From the IMG/VR virus record IMGVR_UViG_3300044825_002433, positions 1 to 59,195 of that record: DNA of 59,195 bases; one strand, given 5' to 3'. A program made the translations under genes and the position numbers. This DNA comes from a virus. The notes under the pieces were generated by a model. It searched no databases, was not told the origin of the DNA, and worked only from the letters and a program-made list of their open reading frames with translations. Shown here in pieces: positions 5,071-19,607 of the stretch; positions within the stretch are counted from its first letter, which is position 1; the number at the start of each line of letters is the position of its first letter.

Positions 5071-6591
5071 ATGCCAAGCCGGGAAACCTTTGCTTATCGC
5101 CGTAACGCCCAAATGAAGGCATTACGTGCTCAAGAGAGTACAGGTTTGGCTATTGAGACTATATACACTAAAGCTGCTGATGATTTCCATACTTTCTGTA
5201 CGTTGCTAGATAAACCCCCAGCGCCCCATATGCTGGAGTGGCACGATCACTTGATAACACATGAGAGTAATAAGTATCTATTAGATATTGCTGGACCAAA
5301 CCTTGATATTCTAGCGCCGAGAGGTTCGGCCAAGTCTACCGTACTTAATATGTTCACTGCATGGTGTATAGGACGTCATACTAGTGCAAAACGACCGTTG
5401 CAGATTATTTATGTCAGTTACAACATCGCCACGGCAATTCCAAAGTCTCGGATCATTCGGCAGATCGTGGATTCCCCAGATTTCCGGAAGATTTTCCCCA
5501 TGTGCCGACTAAAGCCTGGAATGCAGTCGGACATCGGTTGGTCTATTGATTATGAGTACGCAGGTATCCCAAGACTAGGTGATGAAGAATTTACTCTCCG
5601 TGCCGCAGGATTGCGCGGCAGTATCACGAGTAAACGTGCTCACTTGGTATTAGTCGATGACCCTGTTAAGAGTTCTGCCGACATCAAGAACCCCACGATT
5701 AGAGCCGAAATGGATACTAACTGGAGTAGTGTCATCTCTCCCATTATTTTTGAAGGGGGTCGCGCGGTGTGCCTCGGCACTCGCTTCCATCCTTTAGATA
5801 TCCACCGGTCGATGTTTATTCCGGAAAAGGGTTGGAAACAGGTTACGCAAGAAGCGCTTACTTATGACGACAACGGAAATCCAAAAAGTTACTGGCCTTC
5901 GCAGTGGTCAGTTGACTACTTGCTGCAGCAGAAGGAATTAGATCCCGTTGCTTTCTGTTTTCAGTATCAGCAACAGCCCGTGGCGACTTCCGATCTTGTT
6001 GTCTCGCCAGATTTGCTCGTAAAAGGAGAGGTCGTTACTGAATTCGATTCGTTGGCTGTCGGTATTGACTTATCTGCTAGTAAAAACGAAACAAGCGACT
6101 ACACGGCGTTTGTGTTAGGTGGAAGGCTTAAGGATAAATACTACATTATCGATGCGCATCAGTGTCGTTCAATCGGTAATTTGGAGAAGATCGATTTATT
6201 GTGCGATATGTTGTTGGAGTGGGGTATCCTTACGCAACATGACGGGCAGCTGATGCCTACATACTCCACGGTGACCCTTGTGGTTGAATCTGTTGCGTAC
6301 CAAGCTTCGTTGGCTGCGGATCTCAGACGAGTCTTGGTTAACGAACGGGAATTAGGCAACCTCCACATCCACGAGATCAAAGGTTTCCGGGGAGATAAGA
6401 TTGCACGATTCCGAGGCACTCTAGGTCTACTGGAAAATAAGAAGGTTACGTTTAACAAATACCGTAAGTTTGATGCGTTGTTTGATCAGCTAATTAATGT
6501 GGGCGCTACGGCGCACGATGACCTGTTGGATGCGTACGTTTGGCTGGTCACGTTCCTCCAACGTCGAGGGGAGTTTTCAATTGAATACTGA
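5071..6591 (+). CDS. terL: Terminase large subunit
   Basis: A 506-residue packaging motor of normal length. The N-terminal ATPase carries Walker A LAPRGSAKST (residues 81-90) and Walker B LVLVDDP (192-198). After a linker, the RNase-H-like nuclease starts with AVGIDLSASKN (Asp333) and ends with the acidic pair region AHDDLLDAYVW near residue 490. It pumps DNA into the prohead through the portal and cuts the concatemer. It is flanked by glycan genes rather than by the small subunit, which is unusual. The ATG at 5071 is the first start in the frame after the divergent spacer. Confidence 0.93.
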   Translation: MPSRETFAYRRNAQMKALRAQESTGLAIETIYTKAADDFHTFCTLLDKPPAPHMLEWHDHLITHESNKYLLDIAGPNLDILAPRGSAKSTVLNMFTAWCIGRHTSAKRPLQIIYVSYNIATAIPKSRIIRQIVDSPDFRKIFPMCRLKPGMQSDIGWSIDYEYAGIPRLGDEEFTLRAAGLRGSITSKRAHLVLVDDPVKSSADIKNPTIRAEMDTNWSSVISPIIFEGGRAVCLGTRFHPLDIHRSMFIPEKGWKQVTQEALTYDDNGNPKSYWPSQWSVDYLLQQKELDPVAFCFQYQQQPVATSDLVVSPDLLVKGEVVTEFDSLAVGIDLSASKNETSDYTAFVLGGRLKDKYYIIDAHQCRSIGNLEKIDLLCDMLLEWGILTQHDGQLMPTYSTVTLVVESVAYQASLAADLRRVLVNERELGNLHIHEIKGFRGDKIARFRGTLGLLENKKVTFNKYRKFDALFDQLINVGATAHDDLLDAYVWLVTFLQRRGEFSIEY

Positions 6592-6601
6592 TCTGTCCCA
6601 C

Positions 6602-7528
6602 GTGGGCGGCACTAGAGTGCAAGAACCTCTCGGCTTGGCCGAGCCCGACATGCAGGACAAAAAGATTTGGGTTGCGATAACAGCGCACAATCCTTTGGCG
6701 CGTTTGGATTGTTTAATCGGTGTTATTAAGGAGTACTCTAGGTATCCTTGTGAGGTCTCTATTTATGTTTATATTGATTTTGAGTCTCAAGGTGTTGCGG
6801 ATCGGTTAAGCGACATTCTCAATCGTGTCTCTTTTAAGACTGTTGAGATAAAAATCGCACCCCCGGAATTCGAAAACTGGTATTTGACTTGGGCGCACAA
6901 GACGGACCTCGCGCTTGCAATTTTTAACCGCGCTGCAGATATTTATATTTATCAAGAAAATGATATGCACTTAACTTTTGAGAATTTTAAATATTGGTTT
7001 AAGTGGCGCCCTCGACTAAAACCGTTAGGGCTTGAACCGGGGTTTGTTCGGTTTGAAAACTATAAAAATAAGAAAGTGCCCTTCGATAATTATTTTCCGT
7101 ATTCTTTGACGTACCCCACACCTAATGTCTGGGGCAACCGTGGGTTTGAAGTCACCAAAACTTTGGTTATTGATCGAGATGTGGACTTCTTTGTGCAGCT
7201 TGCTAATCCCTACTACGGGGCAATGATTCTTGATCAGAAAGGTGGGGAGCGGTATATCCGATCAGCTAGTTTTGATCCGGAGCGAAGTTATGACCGCGTT
7301 GGTATTCGAAACTGGCCTATTGCCGACAGAAGTTCAATGGGCCTAGCTTTTGAAGATGTTCCTGCAGGGTGTGAGCACTCCCGCTGTGTCCCTGTTTCCC
7401 GCGTGGGGGATCAATACGTTCTATTAGATTCCGGTTTGATTTGGCATGAGGACGATAAATACTCGAAGGAATTAGAGAAACTTCATGGAAATCTGCGAGA
7501 TTGTGCTAATATACTTACACTTAATTAA
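6602..7528 (+). CDS. GT-A-like glycosyltransferase of phage type
   Basis: A protein of about 308 residues beginning its fold with KIWVAITAHNPLARL and a set of strand-helix units typical of a nucleotide-sugar GT-A fold. YIYQENDMHL holds an acidic cluster where the metal-binding motif would be. GTG 6602 lies ten bases after the terL stop and is my choice; ATG 6650 or TTG 6581 are possible. The family is not one I can name and the acceptor is unknown. With GT4, the propeller and the GT17-like gene it makes a carbohydrate set round the terminase. Confidence 0.6.
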   Translation: MGGTRVQEPLGLAEPDMQDKKIWVAITAHNPLARLDCLIGVIKEYSRYPCEVSIYVYIDFESQGVADRLSDILNRVSFKTVEIKIAPPEFENWYLTWAHKTDLALAIFNRAADIYIYQENDMHLTFENFKYWFKWRPRLKPLGLEPGFVRFENYKNKKVPFDNYFPYSLTYPTPNVWGNRGFEVTKTLVIDRDVDFFVQLANPYYGAMILDQKGGERYIRSASFDPERSYDRVGIRNWPIADRSSMGLAFEDVPAGCEHSRCVPVSRVGDQYVLLDSGLIWHEDDKYSKELEKLHGNLRDCANILTLN

Positions 7529-8860: not shown

Positions 8861-9697
8861 ATGCTTTTCGATTGCTTTTTATATTTTAACGAAAAAGAGC
8901 TTCTCGAACTTCGCATCGAGATGCTTAAAGATATTGTAGATGGTTTTATCATAACCGATGCTAACAGAACATTTAAGGGAGATCCCAAACCTTTTACGTG
9001 TGTAGATACCATTCGTGAGCTCGGCTTACCGGAGGACAAGATTCAAGTCCTTCACGTCGAGTTGCCTTCTGCTGAGGAAATCGCCAATCCGTGGGCACGA
9101 GAATACGCTCAGCGAGACGCCCTCGCCGTGGGTATGCGAATGACGCCACCCGATTCGGCGTTTTTCTTCAGCGACGTCGATGAGATTCCTAAACCTAGTG
9201 CGTTACTGCGGGCTGTAGATCTAGCTAAGGAAGATCCTGAACGCTGTGTTCGCCTCTCGATGCCCATGTTCTATGGACGCGGTGACCTTCGCGTGATTAA
9301 TCCTGATGGAAAACCTGACGAAGCTCCTAATAATTGGACCTGCGGGACGGTTGTTCTCCACGAGCACTTAACGAAAACTCTTTCCCAAATCCGGATGAAT
9401 CCGAATGATCTGGTTGTGGGAGATTGTGATGCTGGGTGGCACTTCAGCTGGATGGGTGATTCCGAACGTCTTAAGAAAAAAATAACATCGTTCTCTCACT
9501 GTTATGACGATATTCCTAATGCAGTAGCCCCAGCAAACAGTCATGAAATGATGGAGCACTTAGATAAATATGTTCCGGCTGAGGGTTCCACAGATCCCTT
9601 AGGACGTTCAGATCACATTTTGGTTTCTTACCCGCATGAGCTTTTGCCTGCGGAATTGTTTAAACTTGAGAGAGTTACGAAGTATTTGTTGCCGTGA
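8861..9697 (+). CDS. Glycosyltransferase family 17-like
   Basis: A 278-residue protein whose start, MLFDCFLYFNEKELLELRI then GFIITDANRTFKG, is the typical opening of GT17 (beta-1,4-N-acetylglucosaminyltransferase-like) proteins. FFSDVDEIPK near residue 107 supplies the DxD metal and donor motif. Bacterial and phage members usually act in surface polysaccharide or protein glycosylation; the acceptor here is unknown. Its stop overlaps the next gene's GTG by four bases. Confidence 0.8.
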   Translation: MLFDCFLYFNEKELLELRIEMLKDIVDGFIITDANRTFKGDPKPFTCVDTIRELGLPEDKIQVLHVELPSAEEIANPWAREYAQRDALAVGMRMTPPDSAFFFSDVDEIPKPSALLRAVDLAKEDPERCVRLSMPMFYGRGDLRVINPDGKPDEAPNNWTCGTVVLHEHLTKTLSQIRMNPNDLVVGDCDAGWHFSWMGDSERLKKKITSFSHCYDDIPNAVAPANSHEMMEHLDKYVPAEGSTDPLGRSDHILVSYPHELLPAELFKLERVTKYLLP

Positions 9698-10591: not shown

Positions 10592-12826
10592 ATGGCGGAT
10601 AACTACGGCGTTCGGCAACGATTCAGTGAGATTCTGGAAGCCTCCCGGAATCAAGACCGTTCGCGGCAATCCGCCACGATGGTAGTTCTAGGTCATTTGC
10701 AGCAGATGGTGCTGTTAATGATCAAGAAAGGTTTGTTTTTCTACTGTGAGCAAGACACTTATAGAGCTAGAACTAAGTTCATTCAGGATCTTTTAGACCT
10801 AAACAAACTTGATATTCGATTTCCGTCGATCATCCGAAACTTCCTCATCGACGGTTGCGGACTTTTTTACTTTCGTCCCGACCCTAAATTAAAGTATCAG
10901 ATTTATTTCTTTAATAAAGAGCAGTATCGTGTGTATCACGATATCAATGGAAATATAGAAGAAGTTGTAATTATTTACAGCTATAAGATCCGTAACAGCA
11001 ACATAGGTCTTCCTTCAGATACTTATGGAATGAACGAACGCTATGTTCGTATTTCCATAACTACAGATACTATTTCGGAGTACGAGGCCAATAGTGAGCT
11101 CAGTTTTGAGCTAGAGCCTGGTGCAATCATCGCACCTAAGAGCTCCCGGCCAAACACGCTCGGATTTATTCCCGCTGTGGAGGTCCTCAACAAACCCAAC
11201 AGCAGCGGAACAGAGGGTGAAGGGGAGTTCGAACCCTTCATGGAACAAATTGTTCTGCACGATCAAATGATGCGGAACATTGCCAAGAACATCGAGTTCT
11301 TCGGCAATCCCACGCTGATTAGCTCCCGTCCCCGTAGCGATCTGGTCGAAGCTTCGGATGCCGATCGCACTTTCCGTCCGACTATTAGTAGTCAGAGCGG
11401 ATTTGGAGGAAGGGACACACCTTCGACGCGTGTGTCCGAACCTTTTGGGGCTAACTCCTCTATTGGTGGTTTAAAGGTTCCCCGCATTATTGCGAACGTA
11501 GAACCCAACGACCGCGTGGGCTACATGACGCCCGACCCAGTTAATGGCGACATGAATCGCTACGCGCTTCTGCTGCGGGAAGAAATTCGCACAGCTTTAG
11601 GCGGCGTTGATGAAATTTCAATTTCGGCGGGTGCGACAGCTACCGAAATTAAGGGTCTGATGGGTCGTGCTCAAGCCACGGCGCTGCGTAAGAACAAGAG
11701 TTTCTTGACTTACGGTTTCTGCAAGTTGCTTGAGATGATTATTTACCATCAAGAGCAGATCTTCCGTGAGAGTTTTATTTCGGTCGTTGATCTGAAAGCT
11801 CCTAAGGAACCTAAAGAGCAGACGCAGGAGGCTTTGGAGAAATACCAAGCCGCAATGGCTAAGTTTGATAACAAAGTTGATGTAGCTATTAAAGAGGCGC
11901 TTGACGCTGTTGCCGTACCCCCTGGTGTCTACGGCCTTCCTCCTGACGGCGAACGTACCGTTTCGTACCGATTCCAAGGGGATGTTTATGAAGACACGGC
12001 GTACGATTTAAACCAGAAGTCTATTGTCGTCCGGAACTTGCAGGAACTCGGCGTGGATAGCGTCGAAGCCATCAAGTATCTCTTCCCAGACAAAACCGAT
12101 TCTGAAAGAGCGGAAATGTTGAAAGGATTTCCTTTCCGCATGATTCAGCAAACACAAAGCGCATTTCAGCAATTTTTAGTATTATTAAGTCAGATGTTGC
12201 AGACGCCACATCCTCTTGCGCCGAATCAACCCTTAGCGGCTGATCCTCGGCTAAACCTCACGCCCCTGTTCTACAGGACGTTTGATCACCTCGCGCAAGA
12301 ACTGACTTACTCGGGCAGCTATGAGCCAGCAGATCCCAGCTTCGATCCCGAGCCCGGTCTCCCCGGCGGTAGCGGCCCCTCAGGCAGCTCCCTCGGCGGA
12401 TATGGGCTCAACAGCCTACCCACAATGGGTGGCAACTACCCAGGGGGCGCCTTCGGCAACTATGCCCCAAGCGCCGTCGCCGGCAACACCGGTTACGGCC
12501 CCTTCTATCAACAGCCAGTCCAACCAGTTTCCGTCAACCTCCTCCCCGTCCAACCCGTGGGAAGCGGCCCTGACCAGCCTGGATCGGGTGGTTTCGCGGA
12601 TTACCCCGTCCCTCAACCAGGCACCACAGTATCCTCAGTACCAGACGGCGCCGCAGGATACTCAACAGCTCGCGCTGACTTCACAGGCCCAGCCTTGGCT
12701 GTACCAAGCCCCTACGGATCAGCAGATCTCGTACAACAGCGCGTCTACAACCCAGACTTCTTATCCGACTTCTACGGCGCAGCAACAGGTTCCTCAGCTA
12801 AGCGAGGAAACCGCCGCCGTCGTTAA
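10592..12826 (+). CDS. Portal protein
   Basis: A 744-residue protein placed between terminase and capsid genes, as portals are. Residues about 1-520 have the alternating helical and beta character of portal stem and wing regions, including a long helical segment (LMGRAQATALRKNKSFLTYG) and a charged helix after it. The portal forms the dodecameric DNA channel, docks TerL and nucleates prohead assembly. The last roughly 168 residues turn into Gly/Pro/Ser-rich low complexity; this is exactly the part that overlaps another long frame from 12321. The portal call rests on position, size and general pattern rather than one motif. Confidence 0.75.
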   Translation: MADNYGVRQRFSEILEASRNQDRSRQSATMVVLGHLQQMVLLMIKKGLFFYCEQDTYRARTKFIQDLLDLNKLDIRFPSIIRNFLIDGCGLFYFRPDPKLKYQIYFFNKEQYRVYHDINGNIEEVVIIYSYKIRNSNIGLPSDTYGMNERYVRISITTDTISEYEANSELSFELEPGAIIAPKSSRPNTLGFIPAVEVLNKPNSSGTEGEGEFEPFMEQIVLHDQMMRNIAKNIEFFGNPTLISSRPRSDLVEASDADRTFRPTISSQSGFGGRDTPSTRVSEPFGANSSIGGLKVPRIIANVEPNDRVGYMTPDPVNGDMNRYALLLREEIRTALGGVDEISISAGATATEIKGLMGRAQATALRKNKSFLTYGFCKLLEMIIYHQEQIFRESFISVVDLKAPKEPKEQTQEALEKYQAAMAKFDNKVDVAIKEALDAVAVPPGVYGLPPDGERTVSYRFQGDVYEDTAYDLNQKSIVVRNLQELGVDSVEAIKYLFPDKTDSERAEMLKGFPFRMIQQTQSAFQQFLVLLSQMLQTPHPLAPNQPLAADPRLNLTPLFYRTFDHLAQELTYSGSYEPADPSFDPEPGLPGGSGPSGSSLGGYGLNSLPTMGGNYPGGAFGNYAPSAVAGNTGYGPFYQQPVQPVSVNLLPVQPVGSGPDQPGSGGFADYPVPQPGTTVSSVPDGAAGYSTARADFTGPALAVPSPYGSADLVQQRVYNPDFLSDFYGAATGSSAKRGNRRRR

Positions 12827-13241
12827 TCACTTCGGTCTGGAAGCTCCTGCTGTTCTGAACCAGTACGCCGTCACTTTAGAAGACGCACTGATTCAGCAGA
12901 ATGAGACCCTGGAAGCCCTCACCGCTCGTGCGGGTGCCATGGAGCACATTCTGACTGACCCTGAGCAGCTTGCTGATTACACCGATCGCTTCTTCACCGA
13001 AGTGTATCCCGTGGATGAGACTGAAGCTCTGGCCCCCAGCCAGACTTATCAGCCTCAGTATGACCAGATGCCCGCTGTTCCTGCTTCGGCTTCCACCGGC
13101 ACTCGTCCCGCGGATCCCGATTCCCAGTGGCAGGGTTTCTCTCAGACCATGGAACGCTCTCCTGAGCAGGCATGGCGCTATCTGAGCCAAATGGATCCCG
13201 GCGCTCTGCGTTCTAAGCTTCTCTTTATGGACAACGCCTGA
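12321..13241 (+). CDS. Candidate scaffold protein overlapping the portal 3' end
   Basis: A 306-residue frame that starts 506 bases inside the portal gene, in a different frame. Its first 168 residues, in the overlap, are Pro/Ser/Gln/Thr-rich; the unique part is acidic and helical (LEDALIQQNETLEALTARAGAMEHIL) and ends in AWRYLSQMDPGALRSKLL. Acidic helical proteins between portal and capsid genes are usually scaffolds, which guide prohead assembly and then leave. The unique 3' part is clearly coding; whether translation starts at ATG 12321 or further in is not certain. Confidence 0.7.
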   Translation: MSQQIPASIPSPVSPAVAAPQAAPSADMGSTAYPQWVATTQGAPSATMPQAPSPATPVTAPSINSQSNQFPSTSSPSNPWEAALTSLDRVVSRITPSLNQAPQYPQYQTAPQDTQQLALTSQAQPWLYQAPTDQQISYNSASTTQTSYPTSTAQQQVPQLSEETAAVVNHFGLEAPAVLNQYAVTLEDALIQQNETLEALTARAGAMEHILTDPEQLADYTDRFFTEVYPVDETEALAPSQTYQPQYDQMPAVPASASTGTRPADPDSQWQGFSQTMERSPEQAWRYLSQMDPGALRSKLLFMDNA

Positions 13242-14856: not shown

Positions 14857-14907
14857 TTGTTCGTCGACAACGATTTTCCGAAGCTGCTCGGTGCAGAGCT
14901 CTATCGT
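14857..14907 (+). CDS. Capsid gene exon 1
   Basis: This exon encodes the first 17 residues, ending AELYR. Reading on into the intron gives PHQ and a stop, so without splicing only a 20-residue peptide would form. The alternative split inside the shared CC dinucleotide gives the same protein. Confidence 0.65.
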
Positions 14908-17900
14908 CCGCATCAATAGGTGCCTAGATAATTAAAGTTATCTAGAAAACCTCGTGAATTGCTGGAACCCTTCTTCCAGTGCTCGCTAACCCTTCGGGGG
15001 AACCTTGAAAATTAGACCCAGTAACTTCTGGGCGTTATGTAAGACCTCTTCTGAGCACGCAGAGGTCGAGGGAATCAGCAGCGAAGCCGTGTGGGAACAT
15101 ACGGAACGTTCAGAGACTAGATGAAGTAATCCAGAACGGATGAAACATCCAAGAGCGCGAGGCTCCTAAACAGGTAATGCTGTAGGAGATGATATAGTCC
15201 GAGCTTACGCGATAGCAAAGCGTAAGAGCTGGAAGATAAAGAGCTTCCAGGATAACAAACTGCCTGCGTACGTTGTAGAGATGGCTGCTGAGCCTGTAGT
15301 TGTTCACGATTTTAGTAAACAACCAGGCCAAACTGTGCAGCTGGACAGATATCGCTTCTGGGGTAATCCCGGTAGCAAGGAGTCACGCGAGCGTACTGCT
15401 GAGCAGACCATTGGTACTGCAAACAGCAGGAACATCGTAAAGGATAAAGTTCTTGTGACTCTTCGTGAGTACACAGGTCCTGCAGATCCTAGTGATCCTA
15501 CACAGCCTAGTACTTTTAAGATTGCTAAAACCTTGGCCCTCGCTTGAGAAATCAGGTGATGCGCACTCCGTGAATTGCTGGAACCCCTCCTGACGTTTTA
15601 TTATGTCCGGGAAATCAGCAGCCGAGCTTGATGAGTAATCATCTTGAAGGTTCAACGACTAGGGTTGGCGGTTGTACGCTTGACCTGTTGCCTAGTGCGG
15701 ATCAGGCTTTTCTAAAAGCCTGTCTCTTTGGGGACGGTTGGTTAGGTCTTCAACGCAAAAAATACGTACACCTACGTATAGGTCACTCAGCTAAACAACT
15801 TAACTGGCTGACCTACAAAGCTAAGAAGATAAACCAAATACTAAATAAAGATAGAAAAATTTTAGGGCCTTATAAACAATCCGACGGTTCTAATAAAGAT
15901 AAGATTCACTACTCTTATCTCTATTGTGTTGATGACCACGAATTATTTTCACCGTGGTTTGATCGTTGGTATGAGGTTCCTTCAGTCGGGAAAGTAATAA
16001 AACACGTTACTCCCGATTTTCTATCTGGATTAGGTCTCCCAGAGTTAGCCGTCCTGTGGTGTGATGATGGCTCTGTCAGTTCATCTGATCGAGTTACAAA
16101 ACATTACCTTAAAGATGGAACTCTTAGAGAATATCCGTACGTAGAAGCGCAAGGTCAGATTGCCCTATGCTCTTTAGATTATGAAGAGCACCAGCTTGTA
16201 AGAGAGTGGCTTTATTCCATAACAGGCGTAAAGTGGCGCTACTCTCCTAGAAGCAAGGAAAATAGGGCTACCTTAAACATTGGAAAAAGGGCTTTACGCG
16301 AATTTCTACCGCTCATCGCCCCTCATATTCCTTCGTTTATGGCGTATAAAGTCGATTCCTCCCACTGCCGGATACGGTAAAGGAGGAGACCCCACGAGCG
16401 CGGAGCATCCAAACAGGTGAAGCTGTGGATGATGATATAGTCTGAACTTACGGGATGGTAAACCGTAAGATCTAGAGGATAAAGAGCCTCTAGGGTAACA
16501 ACTTGAGGGAAACTCTGATTACCGCCCAACGTTTACTGTTGGATACAGGTAATCTGACTGCTTTCCATCAATCCATCGGGTCTCTGACTCTTTTGGATGA
16601 CTACACACCTGTGGTCGCTTAGCTAGAAACAGTTAAGGCAATTTAGGGTGAATTGCTGGAAGCCCTTCCCCCTTCAGCAAGGGAAAAGGATTGTGCACCA
16701 CAACGTAATCGGTAACGATAGGCGTGACGGTTTAAAAAACACAACTCCGCATGGGTAATCAGCAGCCAAGCCGGAGAATATACGCTCTGGAAGGTTCAAC
16801 GACTAGATCCCGAGAGGAAACTCAGTAACGGATCCACGAGTGCCCTATACCTGACCTTCGACAACAAAAAAGAGATCCCTCTTTCGAAGTAAACAAGGAA
16901 CATCTTCACTGGCGTTAGCGTAAATAAGCTCACCGAAGTGTAAGGCGTTCTTAGAATACATTCGAAGGTTATACTCTTTATCTACTCCATCTAGAGTGGG
17001 GTAGATATGTTCCTTGTTTAAGAATTCTTTTAATTGTTCGGCTAACAGCTTGCTGCCTGTCGTTATTTTTGCTTCTATAGAGTTTTTCCTTTTGGAAATA
17101 GAACCGTTTCCATCGAAATACCCTCGAAGCCAAAAAATAAAAAGGCTGTGCGGCAGTTTAGGAGCTTCAACAATTAAAGATTTTTTCGGAGGAACTCCGG
17201 CTTTCATTAGATGAACTGCAGCATTTTTTGCTGTTAGTTTTATTTGCCATAAGTTATTTGTTTCGCGCTCTTTGCGGAGTAAACCAGGGTAACCTAAGTC
17301 TTCTGCAAAATGTTCAAGCAAGTAGCTGTCTGCTTCTTTTAAAGCTATGGCAAATCCTTTTGGCTCATTATGTTCCCGGACGATCCAACCGTCTGCGGCT
17401 ATCAGCCCCAACCAATAAGCTTTACGAGGACTGTCGATGTCCGAAAAAAAGTTTTCATTAGCTCCGCTCTTTCGGTAGCTAAAGACTCTTTTTGCTCCGG
17501 GCTTTGCCTCGTAAACATCGCTATACTTTCGTTCGCCTTTCTTCTGCGCGTATGAGAGTACTCCGTGCTTCTTACGAGCATGGGTGGCGGCTGTTCTGGA
17601 CAAGCCAAAAGATCTAGAAATTTCCGCGTCTGAATACAAAGAAGTCAACTCATCCAGTTCCTCTTTTGTCAGATCGGTTAGAGCCCGCTCAGTCACGTCG
17701 AAGAAGGTAAAGATATAGTCTAACACTGCTCGATGATAAAGAGCAGTCGATCGGATAAAGAGCCGATTGGTCTCTTATGAGATTTTTGAGACAGGCGCTG
17801 GCGTGATCGGGTGTTCATTAATGAACTCCTGAAAGCCGTATCTAAGGGTCAGTCTTCTGACTCTCAGGGTGGTTACTACTATCCTGGTGACCTCGCTGTT

Positions 17901-19607
17901 GGTGCTTTAACCTACAGCAACGCCGAACAAGCCAAGTTCGACGTCAAGGACGACCTGCTGCGTGTGGTCAAGAGCCTCCGCAAACGGAACGTCCCCACCT
18001 ACCAAGACGGGTTCTATCGCTGCGTTTGCGATCCAACCTTCTTGCTGCACCTGCGCCAAAACAGCGACTTCCGTGAAGTTGCTCGTTATCCCGGCAATGG
18101 GCAGATCAACCCGCTCATGTCTTCGATGCAGCCTAACGCTGCCATCTACATGGGCCAAGGTTTCGGCCAAGCCACTTTCGTGGCGGGCGAACCCATCATG
18201 CCTAAACAAACCTGGGCCTGCGCGGCGTGAGTCGCGTAGCAAACGGGGTGAATTCAGGGAACCCCTCCTTAAATAAAGGGGAATCCTGAGCCAAGCCGAC
18301 TGAGGAATCGGTCGGAAGGTGCAACGATCAGGAGTCGAGTCCAGACCGGACAGTAATACTCCCACGAGCGCCCCGCTACTCAGATGCGTTTAGCCACAGC
18401 AAAGCTTCTACTCGCTTTCTAGGGATACATACTTCTTGGTTAATCTCATACAACCAAGATAGTACTTCTTTCGGTTTTTTCCCGAAAGTGATTGTATAAA
18501 AAGGTTTCTGAGATTTCAGAAGTTTTTCTGTAATCGAGCAAGAAACTTTAAACTCTTCGGATACCCAGCTATTCCAGATAGCTATAAGGTCCATTGAGCA
18601 AGAACCAAAATTTAATGTTTTGGTTTGGTTTTTTATACAACCATCTCCATCTAAAAGTCCTCTCAAATAATGAGGACGCAATTCCTTGGAAAGACCAGTG
18701 TAAGCTTTATTTTTTGTTGTGTCTTCTGTTATTCCAAAACGTCTTAAACAATCTACTAATACACGGTTGTATACTCTCAACCGTCCGTAACTGGTGTTGT
18801 TTTTGTCTCCTCTGGAATATATAGCTACTTTAGAAGCACTTTTGAGTTCCACAGCTAGTGTTTCGAGGACACAATAATCAGGTTCTTTAAGTTCTATGCT
18901 CAAAAATTTATTTTTGTCATAGCTCAAACAACCGTCTGTGGCTATTAATCCAAGGAAATATGCTTTTCTTGGTGTATCTATCTCGGCAAAATACAAACTT
19001 TCGGGTGAATCTAAATTTTTGTGAGGAGTTCCTTCTCCTGGCAGTAGTATCTCGCCCGTAAGCCGACCTTGACGACTTTCTGTTTTTTCGGTAAAGGACC
19101 GTATCCCGTATTTTTTCCTTAGAGAAAAAACCGTGGATACAGCCAAATTTAGTTGTTTGGCAATCTGAGTATCTGAAAATTGGAAAGTTAAAGTTTCTAA
19201 AACTTTTGGGTCGACTGTAACTTTTTTGCCTTGAGCCATGTGAGTAGATGAGATGATCTGAGCTGCATCAATGGGAAAGATGCAGATCTAGGGGATAAAG
19301 AGCCCCTAGGATAACACACCTGACGGGTTTCGTGTTCGAAGGAGTGCGCTTTTTCGAGTCCACCAACATGCCTTCGCAGTCTCAGACTGCAACTATCGGT
19401 GGTTCTGCCGCTTCTTACGAAGCTGCAATTGGTATGTTCTTCGGTCCTCAGAGTGTTGGCGTCGGCATCGGCGGTAACAACGCTCAGGTTCTTTTGAACA
19501 ACAATGACGACTTCAGCCGTTTCATCATGATGATTTGGAGCCTGTACGCAGGTTTCGAACTTCTGAACGCTGATTTCGCCACCATCGCTTACTCCTTTAA
19601 CGCTTGA
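14857..19607 (+). CDS. Major capsid protein, five exons split by four group I introns
   Basis: The proposed join is 14857-14907, 15263-15544, 16506-16619, 17796-18203 and 19323-19607, giving 379 residues (17+94+38+136+94), a normal size for an HK97-fold capsid protein. Each junction keeps frame, follows a U at the exon end and a G at the intron end, and restores protein sense: ELYR/PAYVVEMAAEP, TLALA/RETLITAQ, TPVVA/RWRDRVF, EPIMP/TGFVFEGVRFF. The start is TTG 14857, with GGAGG eight bases before it and an in-frame stop just upstream. Position after portal and scaffold fits the capsid gene. Unspliced, every exon hits a stop within a few codons. Splice points are inferred. Confidence 0.82.
14908..15262 (+). 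ncRNA. Group I intron 1 (no endonuclease gene)
   Basis: A 355-base intron with the core strings GTGAATTGCTGGAAC, AATCAGCAGCGAAGCC, GTTCAGAGACTAGA and GATATAGTCC in order. Near the 3' end is a hairpin with GGAA/TTCC paired round the loop ATAAAGAG that all four introns share. CTAGATAA/TTATCTAG makes a perfect hairpin near the 5' end. It contains no long frame, so it is the minimal form of this intron family. The P1 pairing is poor by eye, so the 5' boundary is the least certain of the four. Confidence 0.8.
15263..15544 (+). CDS. Capsid gene exon 2
   Basis: This exon encodes 94 residues from PAYVVEMAAEP to TLALA, including DRYRFWGNPG. It meets TGA directly after the proposed splice site, at 15545-15547. 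An isolated 88-residue gene from ATG 15281 would be a misreading. Confidence 0.8.
15545..16505 (+). ncRNA. Group I intron 2, with a sense-strand endonuclease gene
   Basis: A 961-base intron. P1 can be drawn between the exon end TCGCT and GGTGA ten bases into the intron, with the usual U-G pair at the splice site. The core holds GTGAATTGCTGGAAC, AAATCAGCAGCCGAGC, AAGGTTCAACGACTAG and GATATAGTCTG. The terminal hairpin is GAGG-ATAAAGAG-CCTC. The intron ends AACTTG before exon 3. A LAGLIDADG gene occupies most of its length. Confidence 0.85.
15628..16380 (+). CDS. LAGLIDADG homing endonuclease (intron 2)
   Basis: A 250-residue frame on the sense strand. The two helix motifs are KACLFGDGWLG (about residue 30) and LAVLWCDDGSV (about residue 145), as in the LAGLIDADG_2 style, with tracts between that would form the DNA-contacting saddles. 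Such enzymes cut intronless alleles and spread the intron. The first ATG lies within the intron core: its first dozen codons overlap AAGGTTCAACGACTAG, so a later start is possible. It is read from the same strand as the capsid gene, unlike the other two intron genes here. Confidence 0.82.
   Translation: MMSNHLEGSTTRVGGCTLDLLPSADQAFLKACLFGDGWLGLQRKKYVHLRIGHSAKQLNWLTYKAKKINQILNKDRKILGPYKQSDGSNKDKIHYSYLYCVDDHELFSPWFDRWYEVPSVGKVIKHVTPDFLSGLGLPELAVLWCDDGSVSSSDRVTKHYLKDGTLREYPYVEAQGQIALCSLDYEEHQLVREWLYSITGVKWRYSPRSKENRATLNIGKRALREFLPLIAPHIPSFMAYKVDSSHCRIR
16506..16619 (+). CDS. Capsid gene exon 3
   Basis: This exon encodes 38 residues, RETLITAQRLL to DDYTPVVA. It is the shortest internal exon and too short to look like a gene alone. 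A TAG follows one base after its end. The codons stay in frame with exons 2 and 4 only if both neighbouring introns are removed. Confidence 0.75.
16620..17795 (+). ncRNA. Group I intron 3, with an antisense endonuclease gene
   Basis: A 1176-base intron. The exon end TCGCT can pair with GGTGA just before GAATTGCTGG. Core strings GTGAATTGCTGGAAG, TAATCAGCAGCCAAGCC, AAGGTTCAACGACTAG and GATATAGTCTA match introns 1 and 2. The shared hairpin is ATCGG-ATAAAGAG-CCGAT. It ends GAGACAGG before exon 4. The endonuclease gene lies on the opposite strand between the conserved CACGAG string and GATATAGTC. Confidence 0.85.
16845..17726 (-). CDS. LAGLIDADG homing endonuclease, antisense in intron 3
   Basis: A 293-residue leftward protein. 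An N-terminal helix-turn-helix (LTSLYSDAEISRSFGLSRTAATHARKK split over residues 28-54) precedes two LAGLIDADG helices: AYWLGLIAADGWI with Asp112 and FWLRGYFDGNGSI near residue 210. Both acidic residues are present, so cleavage activity is plausible. Because it is antisense to the capsid gene, it cannot be translated from the capsid pre-mRNA and needs its own promoter on the minus strand. Confidence 0.85.
   Translation of the reverse strand: MLDYIFTFFDVTERALTDLTKEELDELTSLYSDAEISRSFGLSRTAATHARKKHGVLSYAQKKGERKYSDVYEAKPGAKRVFSYRKSGANENFFSDIDSPRKAYWLGLIAADGWIVREHNEPKGFAIALKEADSYLLEHFAEDLGYPGLLRKERETNNLWQIKLTAKNAAVHLMKAGVPPKKSLIVEAPKLPHSLFIFWLRGYFDGNGSISKRKNSIEAKITTGSKLLAEQLKEFLNKEHIYPTLDGVDKEYNLRMYSKNALHFGELIYANASEDVPCLLRKRDLFFVVEGQV
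17796..18203 (+). CDS. Capsid gene exon 4
   Basis: This is the largest exon, 136 residues from RWRDRVFINELL to EPIMP. If unspliced it would run on through KQTWACAA to a stop at 18230. The proposed 5' splice site after ATGCCT allows a four-pair P1 with GGGC ten bases downstream, the same spacing as in intron 2. Confidence 0.8.
18204..19322 (+). ncRNA. Group I intron 4, with an antisense endonuclease gene
   Basis: A 1119-base intron. Where introns 1-3 have GCTG paired with CAGC, this one has CAGG (GTGAATTCAGGGAAC) with CCTG (AATCCTGAGCCAAGCC), a compensatory change that supports the pairing. AAGGTGCAACGATCAG is the variant of the core string. The shared hairpin is GGGG-ATAAAGAG-CCCC. It ends CACACCTG before exon 5. 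The endonuclease gene is again on the opposite strand. Confidence 0.85.
18376..19239 (-). CDS. LAGLIDADG homing endonuclease, antisense in intron 4
   Basis: A 287-residue leftward protein related in layout to the intron 3 enzyme: an N-terminal helix-turn-helix (FSDTQIAKQLNLAVSTVFSL, residues 21-40), then AYFLGLIATDGCL (Asp102) and HYLRGLLDGDGCI near residue 200. Both catalytic Asp positions are kept. The phrase DTPRKAY before the first motif matches DSPRKAY in the other enzyme, so the two share recent ancestry. It too needs a minus-strand promoter. Confidence 0.85.
   Translation of the reverse strand: MAQGKKVTVDPKVLETLTFQFSDTQIAKQLNLAVSTVFSLRKKYGIRSFTEKTESRQGRLTGEILLPGEGTPHKNLDSPESLYFAEIDTPRKAYFLGLIATDGCLSYDKNKFLSIELKEPDYCVLETLAVELKSASKVAIYSRGDKNNTSYGRLRVYNRVLVDCLRRFGITEDTTKNKAYTGLSKELRPHYLRGLLDGDGCIKNQTKTLNFGSCSMDLIAIWNSWVSEEFKVSCSITEKLLKSQKPFYTITFGKKPKEVLSWLYEINQEVCIPRKRVEALLWLNASE
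19323..19607 (+). CDS. Capsid gene exon 5
   Basis: The C-terminal 94 residues, TGFVFEGVRFFESTN through FATIAYSFNA, then TGA. The hydrophobic strand-rich end and GGNNAQVLLN region suit the capsid core. It is followed after 14 bases by the next virion gene with GAGGAG as ribosome-binding site. Confidence 0.8.
   Translation, partial: TGFVFEGVRFFESTNMPSQSQTATIGGSAASYEAAIGMFFGPQSVGVGIGGNNAQVLLNNNDDFSRFIMMIWSLYAGFELLNADFATIAYSFNA

Follow-up and report, generated by a model that had tools for sequence, protein, structure and literature searches.

Scaffold genes that begin inside an upstream head gene are known from phage lambda, in which the scaffold Nu3 starts within the protease gene C, nested and in the same frame, and overlapping genes in which interleaved stretches are each held mainly for one of the two proteins are known from tat and rev of HIV. 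The locus described here resembles the lambda pair in that a probable scaffold start lies within an upstream head gene, but its frames differ and its proteins have no common sequence; it resembles tat/rev in its functional segregation, whereas those are spliced genes of an RNA virus and the partners here are disordered tails of phage head proteins. Viral overlaps in general are short: one survey of 12,609 virus genomes gives a median +1 overlap of 14 nt (IQR 8–26), with +1 more frequent than any other relation if overlaps of 1 and 4 bases are disregarded (PMC8903798), and another puts 84% of viral overlaps below 50 nt and the largest common to several families at 185 nt (PMC7017920). As far as these surveys describe them, published overlaps share with ours the same strand and the +1 relation, but ours measures about 450–700 nt, is kept in four groups of phages and is absent from the one annotated record.

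That record is Synechococcus phage S-EIV1 (KJ410740). Among 50,697 annotated phage records, it was the only match at E ≤ 1e-5 to the portal protein of our window (the whole stretch of DNA that was analysed, a virus record of 59,195 bases), at 42.5% identity over 99% (AHV82224); beyond it there were just three matches, at E of about 6–8. As in the window, the +1 frame of the S-EIV1 portal gene is open, for 557 bases with an ATG 554 bases before the portal stop, and its second protein (AHV82225) is 34% identical over residues 160–304. S-EIV1 differs in having a strong Shine-Dalgarno sequence where the window has none, and in being annotated without the overlap: GenBank starts AHV82225 at 10312, after the portal stop, which leaves out 192 of the 325 residues encoded by the complete frame (L002:9736–10713), overlap included. 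Our search of the literature on S-EIV1, overlapping genes, portals and scaffolds, which stopped short of the original S-EIV1 description, found no such portal–scaffold overlap. Long overlaps are known elsewhere; as far as the sources covered go, we did not find one of ~0.5 kb between portal and scaffold described in four cyanophage-like groups.

In the window, two open reading frames share 506 bases, portal stop included, the second lying on the same strand as the first and shifted to its +1 frame:

10592–12826, + strand: portal protein gene, 744 aa, with its body at 10592–12319 and a predicted disordered tail at 12320–12826 (open reading frame, PHROG match, predicted fold, pLDDT)
12321–13241, + strand: gene of the probable scaffolding protein (306 aa), read at +1 to the portal gene (open reading frame, relatives in all groups, pI 4.07, helices in the unique part)
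12321–12826, + strand: the overlap, both frames constrained and apparently coding (frame, codon differences, selection ratios, open frame in relatives)

The coordinates of the overlap are exactly those proposed in an earlier sequence-only reading of the window, which had called the shared stretch an overlap of two real genes and judged it large for a dsDNA phage; both points are borne out, the second as far as the surveys cited above place typical overlaps far below 500 nt. The same reading had both proteins becoming Pro/Ser/Gly/Gln-rich only within the overlap. Composition is as it described, the portal tail being rich in G, P and S and the scaffold N-terminus in Q, S, A and P, both unlike the portal body, but ‘only’ was slightly too strong, as the unique part of the scaffold is likewise Q- and A-rich. 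Its suggestion that the shared tails are disordered agrees with the predicted structures for the most part: in the portal model, residues 570–744, essentially the overlap, have pLDDT <50 almost throughout, and residues 1–161 of the second-protein model are mostly disordered, except for a conserved predicted helix at residues 79–94, which refines that reading, and a short low-confidence helix at 114–120.

Assignment of the first gene as a portal is secure, and here too the earlier identification held. It matches phrog_20475 (E=5.6e-165) and the portal family phrog_64 (E=9.7e-10), and its predicted fold aligns with solved portals over model residues of about 9–468 (best Foldseek E 2.2e-9; VIA Z 14–17.5 over the 50 rows shown); PDB profile searches with the portal and the second protein gave nothing useful. 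A large terminase gene (5071–6591; phrog_38, E=4.5e-73) lies upstream with a few genes between, placing the portal in a head module. A glycosyltransferase family 17 gene (8861–9697; Pfam E=1.7e-17) sits inside this module between terminase and portal. The module has another +1 overlap, of 95 bases, between the terminase end and an open reading frame at 6497–7528, which is probably just a start placed too early by mechanical gene calling.

The second protein probably is the scaffold. It is acidic (pI 4.07), helices are modelled in its unique part within residues 162–226 and 266–305 (mean pLDDT 48.8), and the order portal, second gene, major head protein is found in the window and in the relative L134, as well as in L172, where the head protein was judged by eye. 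A position between portal and head protein, an acidic pI, and helices with a C-terminal helical segment after a disordered arm are all usual for scaffolds. Searches against PHROG, Pfam and PDB found no match above chance level, and the assignment draws on the order of the genes, the acidic pI and the modelled helices; scaffolds diverge fast. The absence of any known scaffold family among the matches, together with the low confidence of the predicted structure, would also suit a different head protein, be it minor head, portal-associated or internal, encoded by a real and coding overlap. We regard this as unlikely in view of where the gene lies, with the portal on one side and the major head protein on the other, the acidic pI and the long helix and C-terminal three-helix segment that follow the disordered arm in the model.

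The major head protein gene of the window itself appears to be split in five (14857–14913, 15263–15529, 16506–16604, 17793–18203 and 19323–19598), its pieces, within a region spanning 14857–19598, having been matched to an intact 393-aa homologue (L134:9385–10563). All four gaps contain group I intron matches, at 14891–15221 and 16593–17741 above the Rfam cut-off and at 15516–16469 and 18241–18376 below it. LAGLIDADG endonuclease reading frames lie in the gaps at 15628–16380 (+) and 16845–17726 (−), the latter antisense to intron and head gene.

Relatives of the locus were sought with the window portal, the S-EIV1 portal, a nine-sequence alignment (against genome contigs), a Nodosilinea portal and a marine portal, yielding 251 loci and, with the window and S-EIV1, 253 in all; as the best 80 loci were kept per search in the large collection, these are a sample and not a census. 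Loci were grouped by search and identity, without a tree, into A (window-like, 81), B (S-EIV1-like, 82), C (88) and D (2), the last comprising a contig of Nodosilinea nodulosa PCC 7104 (L172) and L173. Portal bodies of group representatives are 37–52% identical between groups. The L172 module, a divergent portal–scaffold–head module, sits in a contig of 792,599 bases, and the family may therefore include prophages. Group C members were seen by eye to encode, downstream of their scaffold, proteins resembling photosystem II D1 (L164:9410–10498) and a sigma factor (L188:9229–10182), which are consistent with cyanobacterial hosts.

The portal stop lies within 222 of the 253 loci, the other 31 portals running off the end, and in 221 of these 222 the +1 frame is open for 452–698 bases before that stop (A 72/72, B 69/70, C 78/78, D 2/2). 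The sole exception, L105 in group B, loses the frame 9 bases short of where its locus ends, at a contig end. By comparison, the same +1 frame in the portal body has a mean of 6.8–9.7 stops per 170 codons, and the +2 frame of the overlap has 4.8–6.2. The figure of 222 counts loci and not independent phages, L168/L247 (18,101 bases each) and L170/L174 (100% identical over the query) being likely duplicates. A search from the most divergent portal (L172) for relatives in an overlap-free state returned one, L173, which overlaps too. When synonymous codons within the overlap were reshuffled, the +1 frame stayed open in 2.2% of cases for the window and 0–14.7% across 11 sequences, and when codons were drawn from portal-body usage it did so in 0–21.7% (11 sequences). 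An open frame in a single sequence is thus merely mildly improbable, and it is conservation across divergent groups, together with the codon differences given below, that rules out a chance open frame.

Where the second frame begins, the portal gene carries what looks like a start site:

12296–12326, + strand: candidate scaffold initiation region within the portal gene, with constraint from about 8 codons before the ATG and TAT-GAG in 49/49 distinct group A sequences

All 49 distinct sequences of group A have the ATG fixed within TAT GAG, against body usages of 0.49 for TAT and 0.44 for GAG; TAT is likewise found at the start in 56/56 group B sequences, Tyr being encoded about equally by TAT and TAC in the bodies of A and B. 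Every group B locus listed with a portal stop has CAAAAGGAGATGAGTTATG or a one-base variant of it, and all of them read alike in CAAAAGGAGATGAG(T/C)TATG, with the Shine-Dalgarno sequence 7 bases before the ATG. In C1 (group C without its ATG-start subset L164–L167; L173 was also left out), AAG GAG ... TAC AGT GGA, with its GTG start, occurs in 61/61. No recognisable Shine-Dalgarno-like sequence precedes ATG 12321 in the window or elsewhere in group A, and in the window the start site showed no unusual lack of structure compared with shuffles (z +1.09).

Start codon (ATG or GTG) and position differ between groups while the start always lies close to the overlap's 5′ end, and independent initiation therefore fits better than programmed +1 frameshifting from the portal gene, which would yield a portal–scaffold fusion instead of, or besides, free scaffold. 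Frameshifting of the release-factor-2 type is +1 and uses an internal Shine-Dalgarno-like sequence, and the relation between the frames here is also +1, with a Shine-Dalgarno-like AAAGGAG inside the portal gene. That sequence, however, is followed 7–10 bases downstream by a start codon at a conserved site, no slippery codon or zero-frame stop was evident by eye in the start contexts, the start persists even as its codon varies and its position shifts by codons, and no such purine site is left in group A. We consider frameshifting very unlikely.

Selection at the codon level was assessed after merging identical sequences, leaving 49 distinct sequences in A (from 68), 56 in B (from 64) and 61 in C1. 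L105 was excluded from all codon counts, and loci with a run-off portal or truncated second reading frame from shuffles and codon tests. At unchanged residues, the proportion of different codons in portal body, overlap and scaffold-only region was 0.496, 0.178 and 0.445 in A, 0.447, 0.132 and 0.375 in B, and 0.522, 0.262 and 0.456 in C1. In 20-codon blocks of A and B, codon differences drop from the last codons before the start and recover directly past the portal stop; in B the drop sets in somewhat earlier, to about 0.3, and group C is noisier at these edges.

A simplified version of the OLGenie approach, in which sites are sorted by their effect in both frames over at most 400 random pairs, gave portal ratios (dNN/dSN) within the overlap of 0.38 [0.28–0.52] in A, 0.61 [0.46–0.81] in B and 0.60 [0.52–0.69] in C1, and scaffold-frame ratios (dNN/dNS) of 0.38 [0.29–0.49], 0.28 [0.23–0.35] and 0.44 [0.37–0.51], respectively. 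The unused +1 frame at two stretches of the portal body gave 0.71–0.79; because pairs are non-independent and this control falls short of 1, the ratios carry weight by comparison with the control. A small first set from C (8 sequences, 13 pairs) agrees with C1, at 0.63 for the portal and 0.44 for the scaffold frame. The alternative ratios using SS sites had just 1–3 such sites per pair and were left unused. As read from these sequence comparisons, both frames of the overlap are under purifying selection in A, B and C1, and the codon-level conservation that the sequence-only reading had proposed as a check on overprinting is clear in all three. In neither frame does the overlap use codons as the body does. 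Which frame fits better depends on the group and on the training set, and we therefore claim neither as ancestral; that dN/dS in B and C is lower for the scaffold frame might point to the portal tail as the more recent of the two, an indication on which we do not rely.

These results bear on whether translation here yields the portal alone, with the second gene starting after 12826 and the open +1 frame being a by-product of Gly/Pro/Ser-rich, GC-rich codons. Such an account would fit the GenBank annotation, which starts the S-EIV1 gene 23 bases past the portal stop, the GC-rich low-complexity tails and the 0–15% of synonymous shuffles in which a single sequence stays open. It is largely refuted, and in our view highly improbable, given the open frame in 221 of 222 loci, the two- to threefold fall in synonymous differences over the overlap, a scaffold-frame dN/dS of 0.28–0.44, the conservation of Shine-Dalgarno sequence and start, and tblastn homology to S-EIV1 that already sets in at residue 160, before the point at which that phage's gene is annotated to start.

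Constraint is distributed unevenly along the overlap. In 15-codon blocks, the codon position that is free to vary changes along its length, and three stretches stand out:

12491–12535, + strand: portal-led stretch GYGPFYQQPVQPVSV, portal residues 634–648; portal third position varies in group A
12552–12602, + strand: scaffold-led stretch, the NPWEAALTSLDRVVSRI helix, scaffold residues 78–94; helix predicted at 79–94, scaffold third position varies
12713–12739, + strand: portal-led motif YGSADLVQQ, portal residues 708–716; portal third position free in A and B

Across GYGPFYQQPVQPVSV in group A, variation at portal positions 1, 2 and 3 is 0.02, 0.03 and 0.28, so the portal is held and the scaffold loose. 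The pattern is reversed in the stretch encoding the scaffold NPWEAA helix, at 0.25, 0.13 and 0.07 and then 0.25, 0.13 and 0.05, indicating that the scaffold is held; the same is seen at the corresponding place in B (columns 90–120) and C1 (columns 75–120). Scaffold residues N78, P79 and W80 are nearly invariant and A83 invariant among 55 sequences; portal G709 and D712 are invariant among 33 portals. The remaining blocks, and most of C1, have no clear leading frame. Judged from these patterns of variation, each disordered tail seems to contain short motifs, placed so that those of one partly sidestep those of the other. Freezing of synonymous sites by an element in the RNA or DNA (packaging site, structured RNA or promoter) would suit the strong constraint and the nearly invariant first 15 overlap codons of A and B, but its probability is very low against a codon periodicity that switches register between two frames, constraint that spans the overlap, survives indels keeping both frames and ends at the portal stop, and the lack of any Rfam match in the overlap at gathering thresholds, where the only matches were group I introns elsewhere.

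We therefore return to two overlapping genes, and consider it very probable that two genes of capsid assembly overlap here at their ends on one strand, that this overlap is old, and that the scaffold initiates independently inside the portal gene. Ribosomes would translate the portal gene right through to 12826, while others would initiate at the internal site, which is ATG 12321 in the window and, in groups B and C, an ATG or GTG that mostly has a Shine-Dalgarno sequence; reading in +1, they would produce the protein encoded next, most probably the scaffold, presumably in its own and probably higher amount. The shared half kilobase would encode two intrinsically disordered tails, short stretches serving mainly one protein, with those in between given over mainly to the other, which is how one DNA could suffice for both. 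Both tails would then be carried into procapsids or virions, where they may act via short motifs in head assembly, and the arrangement may confer an advantage. Space saving is an unlikely reason for it in phages of 60–80 kb. The overlap could instead help to set the ratio of the two products, or act as a genetic lock, making portal and scaffold, partners in procapsid nucleation, inseparable by recombination, with their tails meeting in the complex, either directly or on a common partner. We think such a lock quite unlikely; if true, it would explain why the overlap persists in four groups though genomes of 60–80 kb need not save 500 bases.

Long conserved overlaps of structural genes are rare, as far as surveys show (PMC8903798), and the S-EIV1 record is an example of annotation dropping one. 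Here, the overlap persists over environmental phage contigs and a cyanobacterial genome contig, in a set of 222 natural sequences that offers a system for testing how one code can serve two disordered proteins, as well as the fixing of ratios between few portals and many scaffolds and the blocking of module exchange. For the widespread cyanophage family around S-EIV1, it corrects the gene model.
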